Shown here: piece after piece, positions 12,904-20,939 of the stretch
How the letters are laid out: every line of letters starts with the position of its first letter
How positions within the stretch are numbered: position 1 is the first letter of the stretch
Assembly (NCBI GenBank): GCA_003133625.1
Contig: PKYH01000109.1
Span: forward strand, 1 to 42,490
Direction: 5' to 3'
DNA: 42,490 nucleotides
Source: Candidatus Bathyarchaeota archaeon
GTDB taxonomy: Archaea > Thermoproteota > Bathyarchaeia > Bathyarchaeales > Bathycorpusculaceae
Notes under the pieces: model-generated
What the model was told of the DNA's origin: nothing
Database searches by the model: none
The model's input: only the letters and a program-made list of their open reading frames with translations
Program-made: the position numbers and the translations under genes

Positions 12904-14985
12904 ATGAAGATGCCTTCTATAAACTTAAATGAAAACGAGCTTGCTGATTTTGATCAGGCCATACGAAAGGAGTGGCTTGTGACTAACGGTTTAGGGGGCT
13001 ACGCCGCCTCGACCGCATTGGGTATAAACACTAGGAAATATCATGGGTTGTTGGTTGCTGCTTTGCATCCTCCGGTTGACCGAACCGTCTGCCTTTCCAA
13101 GCTCGATGAAGAAGTATGCGTTGGCAACGATATTTTCTGTCTTGGAGCGAATGAGTTCATTGGTGTAATTCATCCTCATGGCTACCGTTTTTTGAAGGAG
13201 TTCTGGGTTTCTCCATTTCCGACATATCGTTATGAAGCTGAAAAAATTGAAGTCAGAAAGACAATTTTCATGCCGTATGAGAGAAATGCGGCAGTCGCTG
13301 TTTATCATGTGAGAAACTCGGGCGTGGTGAATTCCGAGATCAAGGTTTACCCTGTGATGTCTTGTAGGCATTTTCATTCAGTTGTTGACAGAAGGGCAAA
13401 CCAGTTATGTTTCAATCAAATCTCAAGAGCGAGAGAAGTGGAACTTGTTTTTAGCCAGCCAAGTGCCACTTTGGTCTCAAGAGCTATCACAGGAACTTTT
13501 TCCTGTAACTCGAACTGGATCGATAGGTTGCGTTATCAAGAGGAAGAGGCACGTGGCGAGAGTAGCATTGATGATTGTTTCCAGCCTGGATTTTTTGAGT
13601 TTACTCTTCCACATGAACATGAGTCTAAGTTTGCGATAGCTACCGCTGTTACTGAAAACAATGGGGAAGCAATTGCCATTTTGAATGAAATGGGCAACAG
13701 CATCAACGAGATTGAGTCTCTTCTGGCGCGGGAATTGAATCGTAAGACTACTCTTTTGGCCCGATTTTATGAGACGCATGAAGGGGTAACAGCGAAGGAT
13801 TGGTTAAGCTGGGTTCTTTTGGCGGCGGATTCTTTCATCGTGAAAAAAGGCGAGAGAAAGTTCATCATTGCCGGTTATTACTGGTTCGAGCCTTGGGGAA
13901 GGGATTCGTTCATTTCGTTGCCGGGACTCATGCTGGTACCTCGAAGATTTGATGATGCAAGAAAAGTCCTTTTGAAATTCTCGAGTTATAGCAAGCGAGG
14001 GTTAATACCTGATTACATTGATGACAAGACCGGAGAACCAGCGTACAATACTGTTGACGCCACTTTATGGTACGTTAACGCTGTCTTGCAATACTTGAAG
14101 TACACGGCTGCTTTCGAATTTGTGAAAGCTACTTTCTGGGATGGTTTAAAGGATATCATTGATACTCATCAGAAGGGCACAGAATATAACATACATGTTG
14201 ACCGGGATGGGTTGCTTGAACATGGCTCAAGGCTTACTTGGATGGATGCTGAAAATGATGGGGTGGCAGTGACTCCAAGAGCTGGAAAAGCCGTCGAAAT
14301 CCAAGCATTATGGTACAATGCTCTTCGAATATGCGAGATATTGGCGAAAAAGTATGGAGAGAATGCTCTTGCAGACGATTATTCTTCAATGGCGGATAAG
14401 GCTAAGTCGAGCTTCAATCGGGAGTTTTGGAATAGTGAGAAGCAGTGCCTTTTTGATGTTGTGGATAAGCATGGTGCCGATCAGTCGGTTAGATCCAACC
14501 AGATCATTGCTGTCGGGCTAGATTTCACGATGTTGGAAAAAGATAGGCAAAACCTTGTTGTTGACTTTGTTATGACGGAGTTTCTTACTCCTTACGGGTT
14601 GAGAACGCTTGCTCAGAGTGATCCGCGTTATAGGGGCAGATATTTTGGTGATAGGAGGGCGCGGAATTTGGCTTATCATAATGGTCCTGTTTGGCCCTGG
14701 CTGACTGGACCTTTGACGAAGGCTTACCTAAGGACGAAGGGTCAGGCGAGTCGTCAATTGAAGTTTGCGCAGGAGACTTTTCTGTTTCCGTTGTTTAGCC
14801 AGCAGACTATTCAGGGCGGGTTAGGAGCGATAAGTGAGCTTTACGATGCCGATTTGCCTTACGCGCCAGGCGGTTGCATAACTCAAGCTTGGAGCGTGGC
14901 TGAGCTTCTAAGAGCTTACGTGGAAGATACTCTGCAATTCAGGCCGCCTCATGAAAAAGAGGTTTTCAGCCCTAAGACGGTATGA
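12904..14985 (+). CDS. glycogen debranching enzyme (amylo-alpha-1,6-glucosidase family)
   Basis: KEWLVTNGLGGYAASTALGINTRKYHGLLVAAL; WFEPWGRDSFISLPGLML; HNGPVWPWLTGPL. Confidence 0.9.
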   Translation: MKMPSINLNENELADFDQAIRKEWLVTNGLGGYAASTALGINTRKYHGLLVAALHPPVDRTVCLSKLDEEVCVGNDIFCLGANEFIGVIHPHGYRFLKEFWVSPFPTYRYEAEKIEVRKTIFMPYERNAAVAVYHVRNSGVVNSEIKVYPVMSCRHFHSVVDRRANQLCFNQISRAREVELVFSQPSATLVSRAITGTFSCNSNWIDRLRYQEEEARGESSIDDCFQPGFFEFTLPHEHESKFAIATAVTENNGEAIAILNEMGNSINEIESLLARELNRKTTLLARFYETHEGVTAKDWLSWVLLAADSFIVKKGERKFIIAGYYWFEPWGRDSFISLPGLMLVPRRFDDARKVLLKFSSYSKRGLIPDYIDDKTGEPAYNTVDATLWYVNAVLQYLKYTAAFEFVKATFWDGLKDIIDTHQKGTEYNIHVDRDGLLEHGSRLTWMDAENDGVAVTPRAGKAVEIQALWYNALRICEILAKKYGENALADDYSSMADKAKSSFNREFWNSEKQCLFDVVDKHGADQSVRSNQIIAVGLDFTMLEKDRQNLVVDFVMTEFLTPYGLRTLAQSDPRYRGRYFGDRRARNLAYHNGPVWPWLTGPLTKAYLRTKGQASRQLKFAQETFLFPLFSQQTIQGGLGAISELYDADLPYAPGGCITQAWSVAELLRAYVEDTLQFRPPHEKEVFSPKTV

Positions 14986-15519: not shown

Positions 15520-16734
15520 TTAGTACGGCATAACAGCGCCTCTGCCAGGCGGCGGAGCTCGCTTTAGCTGCCAAGCGGCCAATGCAAGTGCAATGACCGT
15601 GTCGTCATGGTAGCCTTCAGGTGCCCCATACTGCACATTTCTACTCGGCGTAGTCTTGTAACCGTAAAGCTTAAGCTCGTTGATCAACTCAGGAACCTGC
15701 GGAATAGTAAGCTGCTGATTCTCAATCATTATACTCAAGTTTTCGATAAGGTCCTTCTTGGTTGCATTTGTAAACTTGTAGCCATCTACGCGGACGTTTT
15801 CGCGGTATAGCTCATCACAGACGGGGTCTCCAACACCAGTGCTGTCAATAAGCAAACGAGCGTTATACCGCTCGGCAAGCTGAACTATACGTTTACGCTG
15901 AAAAACCCAATCTAACTGACTGAACCTATCAAAAGCACACAAGTGGCCATCCATGTCTAAAACGCAAAGCACTGTGAAGTCTTCAAGCTTCGCAAGATCG
16001 GCGCCCATAACATACTGTTTATGTCGCTCAAACGGTTGAAAGCTGCCTTGAACCATGCAGTCTACTCCTCGGAAAACCGAACCAACATCCTCCAAAAACT
16101 CAGCTAAAACTTCCTGCCGATAAGCCAACTCAGGCATATCTCGGGCGAAAGCTGCAATCTCCGCCGGATCCAAGTAAGGATTGCTGGCGCTGGGAAAATT
16201 CCAGCTCTTATATTCCATCTGTGACGGGTCCTGTCCACGAGTCCATAGCCGAAAATACCAGTTATGCCCTCTTGGTGTACCAGTGAAAAAAGCTATTCCT
16301 TTCTCATCCATCAACGCAGGCCTAAGGGCAAGAGTCCAAGCTTCCTCAGCAATTTGAGCGCCTTCATCAACCCAGAGAACCTTTACACCTTGACTGCGAA
16401 GGGAATCAGGGTTATCTGCGCTCTTAAACCAGATGTTACGGTTGCCCTTGAGGATTACATGCCGATCAGAGCGATGAATTTCTTTTATAAGTTCGGCTGG
16501 GCAGAAGTTGAAGAATTCGGTCCATTGACGTTTCGTATGCCAATACGTGGGCGCCACAGCAAAGCCTACTATGTTTGGACCTTGCGTCCACATCTGCCGT
16601 ATGAGTTCGTTGGCACCTGCAATGGTTTTACCCCAGCGGCGTCCACAGTCAAGCACCCTAAACCTTGCAGGGCACATGTGGAACTCAAGCTGTCCAGCGT
16701 GAGGCTTATACCTGATCAATATTGTTTTTTGCAT
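15520..16734 (-). CDS. terL: phage terminase large subunit
   Basis: CGRRWGKTIAGANELI (Walker A), VLWVDEGAQIAEEAW (Walker B), FFTGTPRGHNWYF, nuclease-domain acidic residues. Confidence 0.88.
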   Translation of the reverse strand: MQKTILIRYKPHAGQLEFHMCPARFRVLDCGRRWGKTIAGANELIRQMWTQGPNIVGFAVAPTYWHTKRQWTEFFNFCPAELIKEIHRSDRHVILKGNRNIWFKSADNPDSLRSQGVKVLWVDEGAQIAEEAWTLALRPALMDEKGIAFFTGTPRGHNWYFRLWTRGQDPSQMEYKSWNFPSASNPYLDPAEIAAFARDMPELAYRQEVLAEFLEDVGSVFRGVDCMVQGSFQPFERHKQYVMGADLAKLEDFTVLCVLDMDGHLCAFDRFSQLDWVFQRKRIVQLAERYNARLLIDSTGVGDPVCDELYRENVRVDGYKFTNATKKDLIENLSIMIENQQLTIPQVPELINELKLYGYKTTPSRNVQYGAPEGYHDDTVIALALAAWQLKRAPPPGRGAVMPY

Positions 16735-16737
16735 ACT

Positions 16738-17211
16738 TCAGGGTCTTCCCATTTTGATTACAGTCTCTTGAGGCTCTGCCGACTTTTGTGATTTTGTCCG
16801 AGGAACATATTCAAGGGAAACGGTGAGACGGCGCCTACTGATGGATTTCGAAAGTTCCAAGTTAATCGGAGTGTTTTCTCTTCCATGGCTGCCATACCCA
16901 ACACGCTTCACTCTCCAGTTACCCAAGTTTCCGCGAACCAGTTGAGGATTGCTAGTAACCAGATAGAAGGGCAGATTAATCTGAGAAGAGTAGAGCTCAG
17001 CGATAAAATTAAGCAGACGCTTCCCAATGCCTATGCCCTGGTAATCAGGCAAGACTACCAGTCGGCTAACGCGGAAAAAGTGTGCCCTCATACGCACGTG
17101 TGCAACTGCGATAAAGGCTACAGGCTTTTCTTGGTAGAGGGCAACGTAGCATCTGACGCCTACACCAAGCTTCCCATTCAGATAATGATACTGCCGAAAC
17201 ATTTGCCACAT
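16738..17211 (-). CDS. GNAT-fold acyltransferase domain; probably the C-terminal half of an ABC-ATPase/GNAT fusion made by -1 frameshift
   Basis: SRLVVLPDYQGIGIGKRLLNFIAE is GNAT motif A; the same frame reads RVRPPVELKVYRCGAS upstream of its first ATG. Confidence 0.8.
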   Translation of the reverse strand: MWQMFRQYHYLNGKLGVGVRCYVALYQEKPVAFIAVAHVRMRAHFFRVSRLVVLPDYQGIGIGKRLLNFIAELYSSQINLPFYLVTSNPQLVRGNLGNWRVKRVGYGSHGRENTPINLELSKSISRRRLTVSLEYVPRTKSQKSAEPQETVIKMGRP

Positions 17212-17870
17212 GGAAGCGCCGCACCGATAAACCTTGAGCTCAACGGGCGGCCTAACCCTTTTTTTCGGTCAAACACCATCGTGCCAGTACAGAAAACCCA
17301 GTCAGGATCCAACCAATCGACTACATCATAGTGACAAGTTACAGCTATGAATTTCTTATCTCTCTGGCGCTTGATTGCCTTGCTGATTGCGTAAGAAGCG
17401 ATCTTTGCAACCTCACGGTCAACAACCGAAGTGAACTCGTCGAAAACGACAACTTTCTGTGGAAGACATAGAGCTCGGGCGATGTCAACGCGCATCTTTT
17501 CCCCTTGACTAAGACAACTGTAAGCTTTGAGCCAGTCTGGAGGCGACGCGAAGCCAACACTGCAGAGCAGATGCGTTATTTCGCTTGTCTCTGAGCCTTC
17601 AGGAAAATCATCCAGGATGCATTGATGCGTGTATTCGAAGCCTGTAATGTAAGCGTCTGGAAAGAGCCGTTTAGCTATGCTTGATTTGCCTGAGCCACTA
17701 CGCCCTACGATGATGCCAATCTGCCAGTCGTCTCCTTCTATTGGCAGCGAGCCTTTGAAATGCTTCTCCAACTTAACATCATCTAGCGTAAAGCTGCCAA
17801 CAACGCTTTGGGCTCGAAAGCTCTCTGGTTCACTCCAACTGTTAACAAAATCAAAATCCAAACCATTCAC
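17178..17870 (-). CDS. phage-type ABC ATPase, N-terminal half of the candidate frameshift fusion
   Basis: GIIVGRSGSGKSSIAKRLF (Walker A), LSQGEKMRVDIARAL (signature), VVVFDEFTSVVDR (Walker B); the ORF tail after KKG does not look like the family. Confidence 0.85.
   Translation of the reverse strand: MNGLDFDFVNSWSEPESFRAQSVVGSFTLDDVKLEKHFKGSLPIEGDDWQIGIIVGRSGSGKSSIAKRLFPDAYITGFEYTHQCILDDFPEGSETSEITHLLCSVGFASPPDWLKAYSCLSQGEKMRVDIARALCLPQKVVVFDEFTSVVDREVAKIASYAISKAIKRQRDKKFIAVTCHYDVVDWLDPDWVFCTGTMVFDRKKGLGRPLSSRFIGAALPCGKCFGSIII
17259..17265 (-). promoter_or_regulatory. candidate -1 ribosomal frameshift slippery site A_AAA_AAA_G
   Basis: On the minus strand CGA AAA AAA GGG in the ABC frame; -1 shift enters the GNAT frame; GCCGC/GCGGC complementary arms begin 7 nt downstream. 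Confidence 0.5.
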
Positions 17871-17874
17871 CCTC

Positions 17875-18444
17875 CTAAAGATTCAAAACCCTAACCCTGT
17901 AGCCTTCAGTCTTAAGCTTGTCAAAGAAACACCGCTGTTCTGCCTCATCCTTGCATTCTATAATGAGCTCGTAGCTGCCGGGAATAATGTTTGAGCCTTC
18001 GGGTTCTCCACCTAAATCTTCTGGGAGTTTCTCGCCAACAGACTCCAACAGCGCTTTTAGACAGCCTTTCTCGCCAGCCTCTAGAATGCGCATGTACTCA
18101 GCACCGTCAAGTTCCTTGCTGTGCTTGCCCTTGAGCTTGTTCAGTATCTGTCGAAGCAGCCTTCTGTCAACGTCAGAAATAGGCAGCCGAAGAACTGGAG
18201 CAAAAAACTCGCCATGACCCTTACAAACTTCCGCCCGTTGCTCGCCATCAGCAAAAACCCCGTCCTTGTTAGTTATGATAGGGTAAGTCCAGCCGTACTT
18301 CTGAAGGCTATGCCAAATCTGATCCTTCTGCTTGATCGTCATCTTATTAGGGTTATTTTCATCGCTCCTCAAAAGCCGAAGATCTTCAACCAGCGGTAGA
18401 TAAGCGTCAGGAACCTTAATTGTTGTTTTCTTTTCAGCCACCAT
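17875..18444 (-). CDS. ParB-like N-terminal domain protein (phage)
   Basis: DLRLLRSDENNPNKMTIKQKDQIWHSLQKYGWTYPIITNKDGVFADGEQRAEVCK, ParB-like pattern. Confidence 0.7.
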   Translation of the reverse strand: MVAEKKTTIKVPDAYLPLVEDLRLLRSDENNPNKMTIKQKDQIWHSLQKYGWTYPIITNKDGVFADGEQRAEVCKGHGEFFAPVLRLPISDVDRRLLRQILNKLKGKHSKELDGAEYMRILEAGEKGCLKALLESVGEKLPEDLGGEPEGSNIIPGSYELIIECKDEAEQRCFFDKLKTEGYRVRVLNL

Positions 18445-18457
18445 AACACCTTATCCG

Positions 18458-18751
18458 TTATCTTTTATCCTGAGTTGGTAAGGCAGGGTTTTTCTGTGCT
18501 TCCGTTAAGCAATTTAAGACAGCCTTACCCAAGAGATTTCCCCCGTCAATAGTGTACTTTATGATTACGATCTCAACGCCCATTCCTTGCTGTTTAGCCC
18601 AAGCATCAAATTGTTCTTGCGAAAGGTTATAACCGCACGCTCCATAGTAATGTCCATCAAAATCTGTAACAACGTACTTTCTCTCTGCAGTTGACCCTAA
18701 CTTTTTCTCAGCGACCTCTAAACGTCTCATAACACCCCTGTTAACTTTCAA
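18458..18751 (-). CDS. hypothetical phage protein
   Basis: 97-aa ORF in a tightly packed phage operon. Confidence 0.55.
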   Translation of the reverse strand: MKVNRGVMRRLEVAEKKLGSTAERKYVVTDFDGHYYGACGYNLSQEQFDAWAKQQGMGVEIVIIKYTIDGGNLLGKAVLNCLTEAQKNPALPTQDKR

Positions 18752-19155
18752 CGCTTTCCATCCTCCGTTACTTTCTTTTCCGCTAATTCTTCCACATGTT
18801 CAAGCCGCGAAAAAATCTCCCTAGACAGCACAGTGTTGCTGTGGACTTCCAGGCTATCTAAGACAACTTTTAATGCACCTACACGCGCGTTGTCATTATC
18901 CGCACGAAGGTAGATACTCCAGGCGGCTTTCTGGACAGCGTTAAGCTTAGACTCTATGACTTGGGCAAACCCGCTGTACTTCTCCAAATCCAAGAGTATA
19001 GGAACCCATTTTTCGCGTCGTTCCCAATCGCTCCACAAGCACCTCTCAGAAACATGGTATTTTTCAGCAAGCTGGCTTATCACAGCTGAGGGATGGAAAC
19101 CTTTGCAGACAGTGTCTAGCATTTCTGCTCGGCGCTTTAAGAGCTTAAGGTTCAA
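18748..19155 (-). CDS. HTH protein, likely terminase small subunit-like
   Basis: HTH-like VISQLAEKYHVSERCLWSDWERREKW at the head of the phage operon. Confidence 0.5.
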   Translation of the reverse strand: MNLKLLKRRAEMLDTVCKGFHPSAVISQLAEKYHVSERCLWSDWERREKWVPILLDLEKYSGFAQVIESKLNAVQKAAWSIYLRADNDNARVGALKVVLDSLEVHSNTVLSREIFSRLEHVEELAEKKVTEDGKR

Positions 19156-19408
19156 AGGTTTCTCCCACTTTTATTCGTAATTCATAACTTGTGGGTTGCA
19201 AAGATCTGTCACCTTGTCCAGCATTTTGTCGAGCGTTTGCGTTACCGGTATATTCCAAAGCCTTGAGGTTCCTTCTAGTCAGGCTATTTGCCCCTTCTGT
19301 TATTGTATTAACACAAAGCCTTAAATAAAAACAAGTATTGTATAATTCAACGTTAGATATAACAAAAACTGTTAGGGAGTGTAAGAACAATCTTGTTAAG
19401 TAAATCAA
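19145..19408 (-). CDS. hypothetical protein, start uncertain
   Basis: C-terminal portion EGANSLTRRNLKALEYTGNANARQNAGQGDRSLQPTSYELRIKVGETFEP is coding-like and overlaps the next gene by 11 bp; N-terminus doubtful. Confidence 0.3.
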   Translation of the reverse strand: MIYLTRLFLHSLTVFVISNVELYNTCFYLRLCVNTITEGANSLTRRNLKALEYTGNANARQNAGQGDRSLQPTSYELRIKVGETFEP

Positions 19409-19884
19409 TGAAACAATACGTATTGAACAAAGAGAAGAATGGATACAACAAGGAAATACAAAACGTCTACAATAATCGACTTAGGGCGTACGCAATACAA
19501 GCGTTAAAGGATTTAGCTTTGTTGGCTGACAAATTGCCTGAAGCAGAGCAAGCCCAAGTCTTTAATAATAATACAATGGCACCTTTATTCCAAAGTCTAT
19601 TCAGTTTTTCAGGCGACAAACCAGGACATAATCTTCAAACCATTGAAGATTTATCGAAGAAAATGGACCAAGAACAATTGCAAAAAAGACGTTCCAGGAT
19701 ATTGCTGCTCTGCTATGAAACTGTGAATGTAATTGGCGACACAATGAACGCCCATAACATTGCACCCTATGAGATGAGTATTTTGTTAAACGCAGGGCAA
19801 AATGATGCTCTTCCGGCTTTGACGGGTACAAAGGCAGTATACCTAAAGGGATTTGGTTTGCATCAGTTGCCTCCAAGAGCTTAA
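19393..19884 (+). CDS. hypothetical protein
   Basis: 163-aa helical ORF, TTG start or ATG at 19408, divergent from the phage operon. Confidence 0.6.
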   Translation: MLSKSMKQYVLNKEKNGYNKEIQNVYNNRLRAYAIQALKDLALLADKLPEAEQAQVFNNNTMAPLFQSLFSFSGDKPGHNLQTIEDLSKKMDQEQLQKRRSRILLLCYETVNVIGDTMNAHNIAPYEMSILLNAGQNDALPALTGTKAVYLKGFGLHQLPPRA

Positions 19885-20090
19885 GGGACTTTGAGGGCGA
19901 TTCTTAGTCTTTTGCACATTGTTTTACCAAGGAGTATCCCCAATTATTCCTCACAATTGAGTAACCCCCTGTCAAATTTTCGCTTGGGACGCAACCTCTA
20001 ACAAAGAAGAAAAAAGAGAAAAATGTGAGAAAATGGGAAGTATACCTTAAAAGCTTAATATAGATTAAGGTCACGCTATTTTACTGAGCT

Positions 20091-20939
20091 GTGGAACTAG
20101 TGTTCAAAAGTGTGGGATTAATCGCCCGCTACGATAAAAAACCTGCTTTAAAGCTTACAGAAGAGCTAGCGGATTATCTTACAAAGAAAGGGTTGAAGGT
20201 TTACATCGAAGATTCGCTAGCGGGAAAAGTCACCACACAGGAAGAGATTGTTCCGCTATCAAAAATGAAAACTGACTTCATAATAACAATCGGTGGCGAC
20301 GGAACAATACTACGTACATGCATCACGGTGCCTAAGCCTGAACCGCCAATTTTAGCAATTAACATGGGAGTCAGAGGATTCTTAACAGAAGTCGAGCCTA
20401 AAAACGCCTGTGAAGCAGTAGAAAAAATCTTGAAAGGCGAGTACAAAATAGAAAAATGCGCTAAGCTAGCTGTTTCAGCAGGCGAAGAATCAATGCCAGA
20501 CGCTTTAAACGACGTTGTCATTTCTGCTGGCGAACCATCAAAAATACTTTACACTCAAATATGCAAGAACGGGAAGCCAATTCTTAAATGCCAAGCCGAC
20601 GGACTAATCGTAGCCACCCAAACGGGTTCTACTGGTTATTCCCTTTCAGCAGGAGGACCGGTTTTAGACCGAGAAGTAGACGCTTTCGTTATTACGCCGA
20701 TCTGTTCGTTAACTGTGTTCCATTCGCTTGTTTTTCCAGCGGACTCCACTATTACCTTCAACGTAATTAGGCCAAAGGACATGCTTGTTTTAATTGATGG
20801 AAACTACCGCAAACTTGTAAGCGTTAAAGAGCCAATGCTTAAGGTCACAAGATCCAAAAATGTAACTTCTTTTATAAGATTCGAAACTGATTTTTATGAC
20901 CGGTTAAGAAGTCGGTTGCTTTTTAAGGGAACAGAATGA
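20091..20939 (+). CDS. nadK: NAD kinase
   Basis: TIGGDGTILRTC, NMGVRGFLTEV, ATQTGSTGYSLSAGGPV motifs; GTG start. Confidence 0.92.
   Translation: MELVFKSVGLIARYDKKPALKLTEELADYLTKKGLKVYIEDSLAGKVTTQEEIVPLSKMKTDFIITIGGDGTILRTCITVPKPEPPILAINMGVRGFLTEVEPKNACEAVEKILKGEYKIEKCAKLAVSAGEESMPDALNDVVISAGEPSKILYTQICKNGKPILKCQADGLIVATQTGSTGYSLSAGGPVLDREVDAFVITPICSLTVFHSLVFPADSTITFNVIRPKDMLVLIDGNYRKLVSVKEPMLKVTRSKNVTSFIRFETDFYDRLRSRLLFKGTE

Follow-up and report, generated by a model that had tools for sequence, protein, structure and literature searches.

The E. coli dnaX gene, from which tau and gamma are made, contains a -1 frameshift site at which the shift yields the short product. The gene analyzed here resembles dnaX in its A_AAA_AAG-type heptamer, its downstream hairpin and, in relatives, an upstream Shine-Dalgarno (SD)-like element, as well as in its layout, in which a single gene encodes both a short ATPase and a longer version carrying an additional domain. 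It differs in that the shift would yield the long product, in being a viral ABC-GNAT gene of Bathyarchaeia, and in that the window (the whole stretch of 42,490 nucleotides that was analyzed) is without the SD-like element. Archaeal -1 sites have been described in S. solfataricus fucA1 and in haloviral genes (PMC8211752). These are different genes, and whereas only a few strains have the fucA1 split (site A-AAA-AAT, putative stem-loop; PMC8211752), the ABC-GNAT split is clade-wide. In magnesium chelatase genes of bacteria and archaea, an A_AAA_AAR -1 site is under purifying selection (PMC3711429, PMC5009743); this again is a different gene, and the text consulted describes no switch to a +1 signal serving the same alternative frame. 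For +1 shifting the comparison is with prfB, where CTTT lies three nucleotides downstream of a near-AGGGGG sequence (PMC12421855). The phrog_11143 proteins of Leptospira phages LE3 and LE4 have the same two domains in the same order as our gene, but each is annotated as one ORF with no frameshift described. A search of mainly open-access literature found no description of frameshifting in this gene.

The split ABC-GNAT gene and its neighbors

The features of the locus, all on the minus strand, are as follows.

17875..18444, minus strand: upstream neighbor, ParB-like protein (phrog_620 ParB-like, E 4.9e-11)
17178..17870, minus strand: ABC-ATPase in the 0 frame, comprising the ABC domain and a short tail past the shift site
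17274..17277, minus strand: place of the SD-like GGAG in relatives, 8 nt 5' of the heptamer; GGTG in the window
17259..17265, minus strand: putative slippery heptamer A_AAA_AAA, codons CGA AAA AAA GGG, phased in the ABC frame
17218..17251, minus strand: downstream hairpin of 8+6 bp (14 bp), 7 nt past the heptamer
17178..17258, minus strand: 0-frame tail of 26 sense codons and the stop TGA (17180-17178)
17179..17190, minus strand: YHYL codons TAT CAT TAT CTG of the GNAT domain
16738..17259, minus strand: GNAT acetyltransferase in the -1 frame, as read after a shift
15520..16734, minus strand: downstream neighbor, terminase large subunit (TerL; Pfam Terminase_6N and 6C; phrog_2, E 2.9e-44)

Comparison with Pfam resulted in matches of the ABC half to ABC_tran (E 1.7e-9) and of the GNAT half to Acetyltransf_7 (E 8.7e-10), and the 357 positions of the PHROGs profile phrog_11143 are matched in order by the ABC half (positions 12-194, E 6.7e-57) and then by the GNAT half (positions 197-352, E 1.4e-30). 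The minus strand reads GACCGAAAAAAAGGGTTAGG at 17270-17251, with the ABC-frame codons CGA AAA AAA GGG at 17268-17257. The preliminary description had proposed a phased A_AAA_AAA in the ABC frame, a GNAT domain in the -1 frame past a short 0-frame tail, and a pairing of GCCGC with GCGGC, and each of these is present: the A7 run occupies 17265-17259, the 0 frame closes at TGA 17180-17178 (the 27th codon after the heptamer, with the stop counted) while the -1 frame, with the sequence KKRVRPPVELKVYRCGASMWQMFRQYHYLN, is open as far as 16738, and the pairing forms part of the 8+6 bp hairpin at 17251-17218. Read in the shifted frame, the YHYL codons give the end of the 0-frame tail, which is I-I-I-stop in the window and I-T-I-stop in many relatives. 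A7 runs are depleted across the whole window (17, with 52 expected from dinucleotide shuffles). The bare run is unremarkable there; what is distinctive is the phased heptamer together with the split and the stop distance, found in 57 loci (below).

The gene lies in a short viral island (15520-19900) comprised of the ParB-like, ABC/GNAT and TerL genes and small ORFs, flanked by a glycogen debranching enzyme gene (12904-14985) and a NAD kinase gene (20091-20939); no portal or capsid genes were seen near it. The 2.55-Mb assembly contains a second copy of the gene (L121, G000:C78), and three other Bathyarchaeia genomes (G085, G086 and G087) have about five to seven copies each, multiple copies per genome probably representing several proviruses. 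One split locus, from a single-contig Bathyarchaeia genome, belongs to a provirus that also encodes ParB-like, TerL, portal, scaffold and capsid proteins.

Conservation of the split, the tail and the hairpin

A search of viral contigs yielded 80 relatives, to which genes from Bathyarchaeia and other genomes were added. At 60% identity or more, every relative except L031 switches to a -1-frame GNAT domain at the same codon. The -1 relation holds at 106 loci (a redundant count), and a phased A-heptamer is found at 63 non-redundant loci, including the doubtful site of L085. Exactly 27 codons separate the heptamer from the 0-frame stop in 57 of the 63; this set was picked for its tail length, but the clade showed no tail of any other length. 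Among these split loci the heptamer takes the forms A_AAA_AAA, A_AAA_AAG or A_AAA_AAC, and the run is A7 in 25, A8 in one and A9 in 31. When the synonymous GNAT codons were resampled, an open 0 frame was expected with a mean probability of 0.49 per sequence and, given an open frame, a stop at the observed codon with a probability of 0.54; both features are present in 57/57, although the expected counts treat related sequences as independent, which overstates significance and makes the p-values nominal. Wobble variation is 0.95 bits in the overlap, compared with 1.65 downstream and 1.39 in the ABC part, and the Tyr codon preceding the final Leu of YHYL is TAT in every one of the split loci at 49% usage. 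Conservation in the GNAT frame, with the consensus R.RPP.EL, starts at the shift site.

Folding of the sequence downstream of the heptamer, as the preliminary description had suggested, predicted a hairpin for each of the 25 A7 members (mean z -3.67, mean dG -18.7 kcal/mol), at a 7-nt spacing that falls within the roughly 5-9 nt of -1 cassettes, whereas the A9 members (n = 31) have no structure signal (mean z +0.22). The stem codons of the A7 group are CCG (17% usage), CCC (23%) and CGG (11%), each in 25/25, and the rare synonymous codons CCG and CGG are mostly unused by the A9 group. Across the A7 members 95.7% of cells are paired. The stem has no two-sided covariation in this group, only one-sided changes of the G-U type; the hairpin is supported by strict codon conservation. 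GGAG is found 8 nt upstream of the heptamer in 21/25 A7 and 14/31 A9 members (35/56 together). In dnaX such an element is stimulatory and not required; the window has GGTG in its place. The archaeal 16S rRNA gene of the window genome contains GGATCACCTCC, the usual anti-SD end.

We assign a probability of roughly 85% to the reading, made from sequence, in which a programmed -1 ribosomal frameshift at A_AAA_AAA, aided by the hairpin, gives two proteins from one viral gene. Ribosomes that do not shift would produce the ABC ATPase with a 26-residue tail, and those slipping by -1 at A_AAA_AAA would continue into the ABC-GNAT fusion, with the downstream hairpin likely to help the slip. Slippage of ribosomes at the heptamer, its efficiency, and a need for both products are what we infer, the last by analogy with gamma and tau of dnaX. 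The earlier suggestion that one locus could make both ABC-only and ABC-GNAT proteins gains support from the 57 loci that have phased heptamer, split and stop in common.

Continuous relatives and alternative explanations

The preliminary description overlooked that continuous relatives retain the alternative frame together with a prfB-like +1 signal. The continuous set contains 69 non-redundant ABC-GNAT genes, mostly from planctomycete genomes and viral contigs. The alternative (tail) frame is open ahead of the stop in 69/69 (about 50 expected) and in 67/69 its stop falls at these YHYL codons too, compared with 25.5 expected (nominal p about 7e-32), and the Tyr codon is again TAT, in 69/69 at 36% usage. 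At the junction, the motif nGG(A/G)GG-N3-(C/G)TT occurs in frame in 57 of the 69 genes, with 0.44 expected; AGG accounts for 4.9% of the Arg codons in these genes, and CTT for 10% of the Leu codons. The SD-like run, the 3 nt, the CTT slip codon and the C that mostly follows the A-site codon are shared with the RF2 gene prfB, at equal spacing. The slip codon is CTT in 46 of the 57 motif-bearing genes; in contrast to prfB, it is GTT in the other 11, the A site holds a sense codon (CGG, CAA, AGG or TGG), and a +1 shift would shorten the protein rather than complete it. Neither UGA in the A site nor RF2 autoregulation applies to these genes, and given the sense codon the signal is prfB-like, not a prfB element. 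A role of the SD motif as an initiation site was rejected, as 56/57 motif-bearing genes have no start codon 3-13 nt downstream of it.

A +1 shift in the continuous genes would give the ABC part with a tail ending in I-(T/I)-I, like that of the split genes. Judging from these motifs, continuous relatives probably make the same protein pair, with a prfB-like +1 shift cutting the product short. The idea was checked on 14 phage records collected after it had been formed: the alternative stop is present in 13 of these, the exception being Aeromonas PX29, and CTT or GTT stands at the junction in the right frame in nine, including Gordonia Jace, Arthrobacter EastWest and Pasteurella Pmp13, which also have the SD. 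The junction codon is absent in the remaining five (Komp_PAO1_1, MT835521, PX29, P12024S and pT24), indicating that the +1 rule is not universal.

Taken across both groups, it appears fairly likely that the viral ABC-GNAT family is held under two-product frameshift control by opposite shifts: a -1 shift that would extend the protein at an A-rich heptamer, sometimes with a hairpin, and a +1 shift that would truncate it at a prfB-like SD-N3-CUU, either direction preserving the alternative frame along with its stop and its I-(T/I)-I end. If so, the conserved item would be the product pair and not the direction of the shift, viruses of archaea and of bacteria would have a frameshift gene in common, and a prfB-like +1 signal would occur in genes other than prfB, here with a sense codon at the A site. 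Continuous genes are predicted to yield the short product as well, and A7 with a hairpin beside A9 without one in a single clade would provide a natural test of the trade-off between run length and structure. Such control would also account for misleading records in which "ABC siderophore transporter" genes are short and GNAT genes are truncated.

Transcriptional slippage on the A run, as in Thermus thermophilus dnaX, would give an mRNA with one extra A that reads straight into the GNAT domain. For the A9 members, 31 of the 57 split loci and without the hairpin, this is possible, and natural run-length variants exist: L031 (4001-5074) has A10 with ABC and GNAT in one frame, and L140 and L162 have A8, whereupon the ABC frame terminates at once. 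These variants, which may reflect phase variation or assembly error, indicate that some locus variation or error occurs. As the overall explanation slippage is unlikely: the run in the window is only A7, short of the long homopolymer (about 9 or more) expected, all 25 A7 members have the hairpin at a spacing suited to ribosomes, the SD-N3-CUU of continuous relatives is translational in kind, and L055 has A6 followed by G at its shift site, which disfavors polymerase slippage there. An error in sequencing or assembly, or decay of the gene, is suggested by the homopolymer and by the in-frame A10 relative, and the preliminary description had allowed for an A8-to-A7 deletion or error. Many assemblies contribute to the 57 non-redundant loci that are split alike at this position, which rejects error for the family, leaving a negligible probability, and equally answers the concern that close relatives might all be continuous and without the heptamer.

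Separate initiation of the GNAT domain in or after the ABC frame, by translational coupling of two genes, would be in keeping with an ATG at 17211 in the window and with firmicute phage records that show short GNAT or unknown ORFs after ABC. Such a start codon is not conserved across the split loci, ATG being missing from the GNAT frame in 22/57 and any usable ATG, GTG or TTG in 17/57, and an independent GNAT start was rejected on this ground; GNAT-frame conservation is also present from the shift site onward, ahead of any such start, and the SD motifs of continuous relatives lack a following start codon as described above. We consider two genes very unlikely. The very high nucleotide conservation around YHYL in both classes, next to ParB-like and TerL genes, could reflect a DNA site for packaging or ParB, with the frame pattern as a by-product. 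However, the conservation is codon-phased, the first and third residues of I-(T/I)-I-stop hardly vary whereas the second does, the stop is retained in several spellings (CTA A, CTG A, TTG A, TTA A), and the signal types differ between clades yet serve one frame logic, all of which makes a DNA site highly improbable.

Predicted fold, possible role and related junctions

An AlphaFold2 model of the fusion was made for the naturally in-frame relative L031 from an alignment of 67 sequences and has a pLDDT of 90.6; a single-sequence fold of the same protein has a pLDDT of 36. In the model the last ABC strand spans residues 193-196 and the first GNAT strand residues 206-211, positioning the shift codons (about 196-199) at the end of the ABC domain and in the interdomain linker. 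The best viral match to the fusion model is the model of the Leptospira LE4 protein (TM 0.82), and Foldseek against the PDB returned generic ABC ATPases and a weak TmcA match. The sole PADLOC hit was a partial one to mad3, covering the ABC part, and profile comparison of the GNAT domain with the DNA-modifying GNAT Mom of phage Mu revealed no similarity (hhalign probability 0.1). In Pseudomonas phage Komp_PAO1_1 and a Porphyromonas phage (L232 and L234) a formyltransferase gene follows ABC-GNAT, after tail genes, hinting at a module for acyl or formyl modification of nucleic acid. From this neighbor in two phages and from the position between the ParB-like and terminase genes, a role in acyl modification of viral DNA or in packaging control may be tentatively guessed.

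In a tree of the ABC part, most split genes group in a single clade (67 rows, SH-aLRT 96), and the split has another origin in streptococcal-type prophages (L052, L055 and L061) adjoining continuous +1-type genes; the A7 label requires at least three changes on this tree. Shift sites vary in the family and include A-rich sites, G_GGA_AAG (Spirosoma) and T runs. In Streptococcus, Lactococcus and Oenococcus phages (L034 and L084-L088), T_TTT (GTT TTT C) is a candidate shift site only, and T runs of at least 8 at the same domain junction in L033 (near 4573) and L175 (near 3105) are a possible slip site. The firmicute phage records L084-L088 call the ABC part an iron siderophore transporter and the ParB-like gene a methylase, with the GNAT domain entered as a short or unknown ORF.
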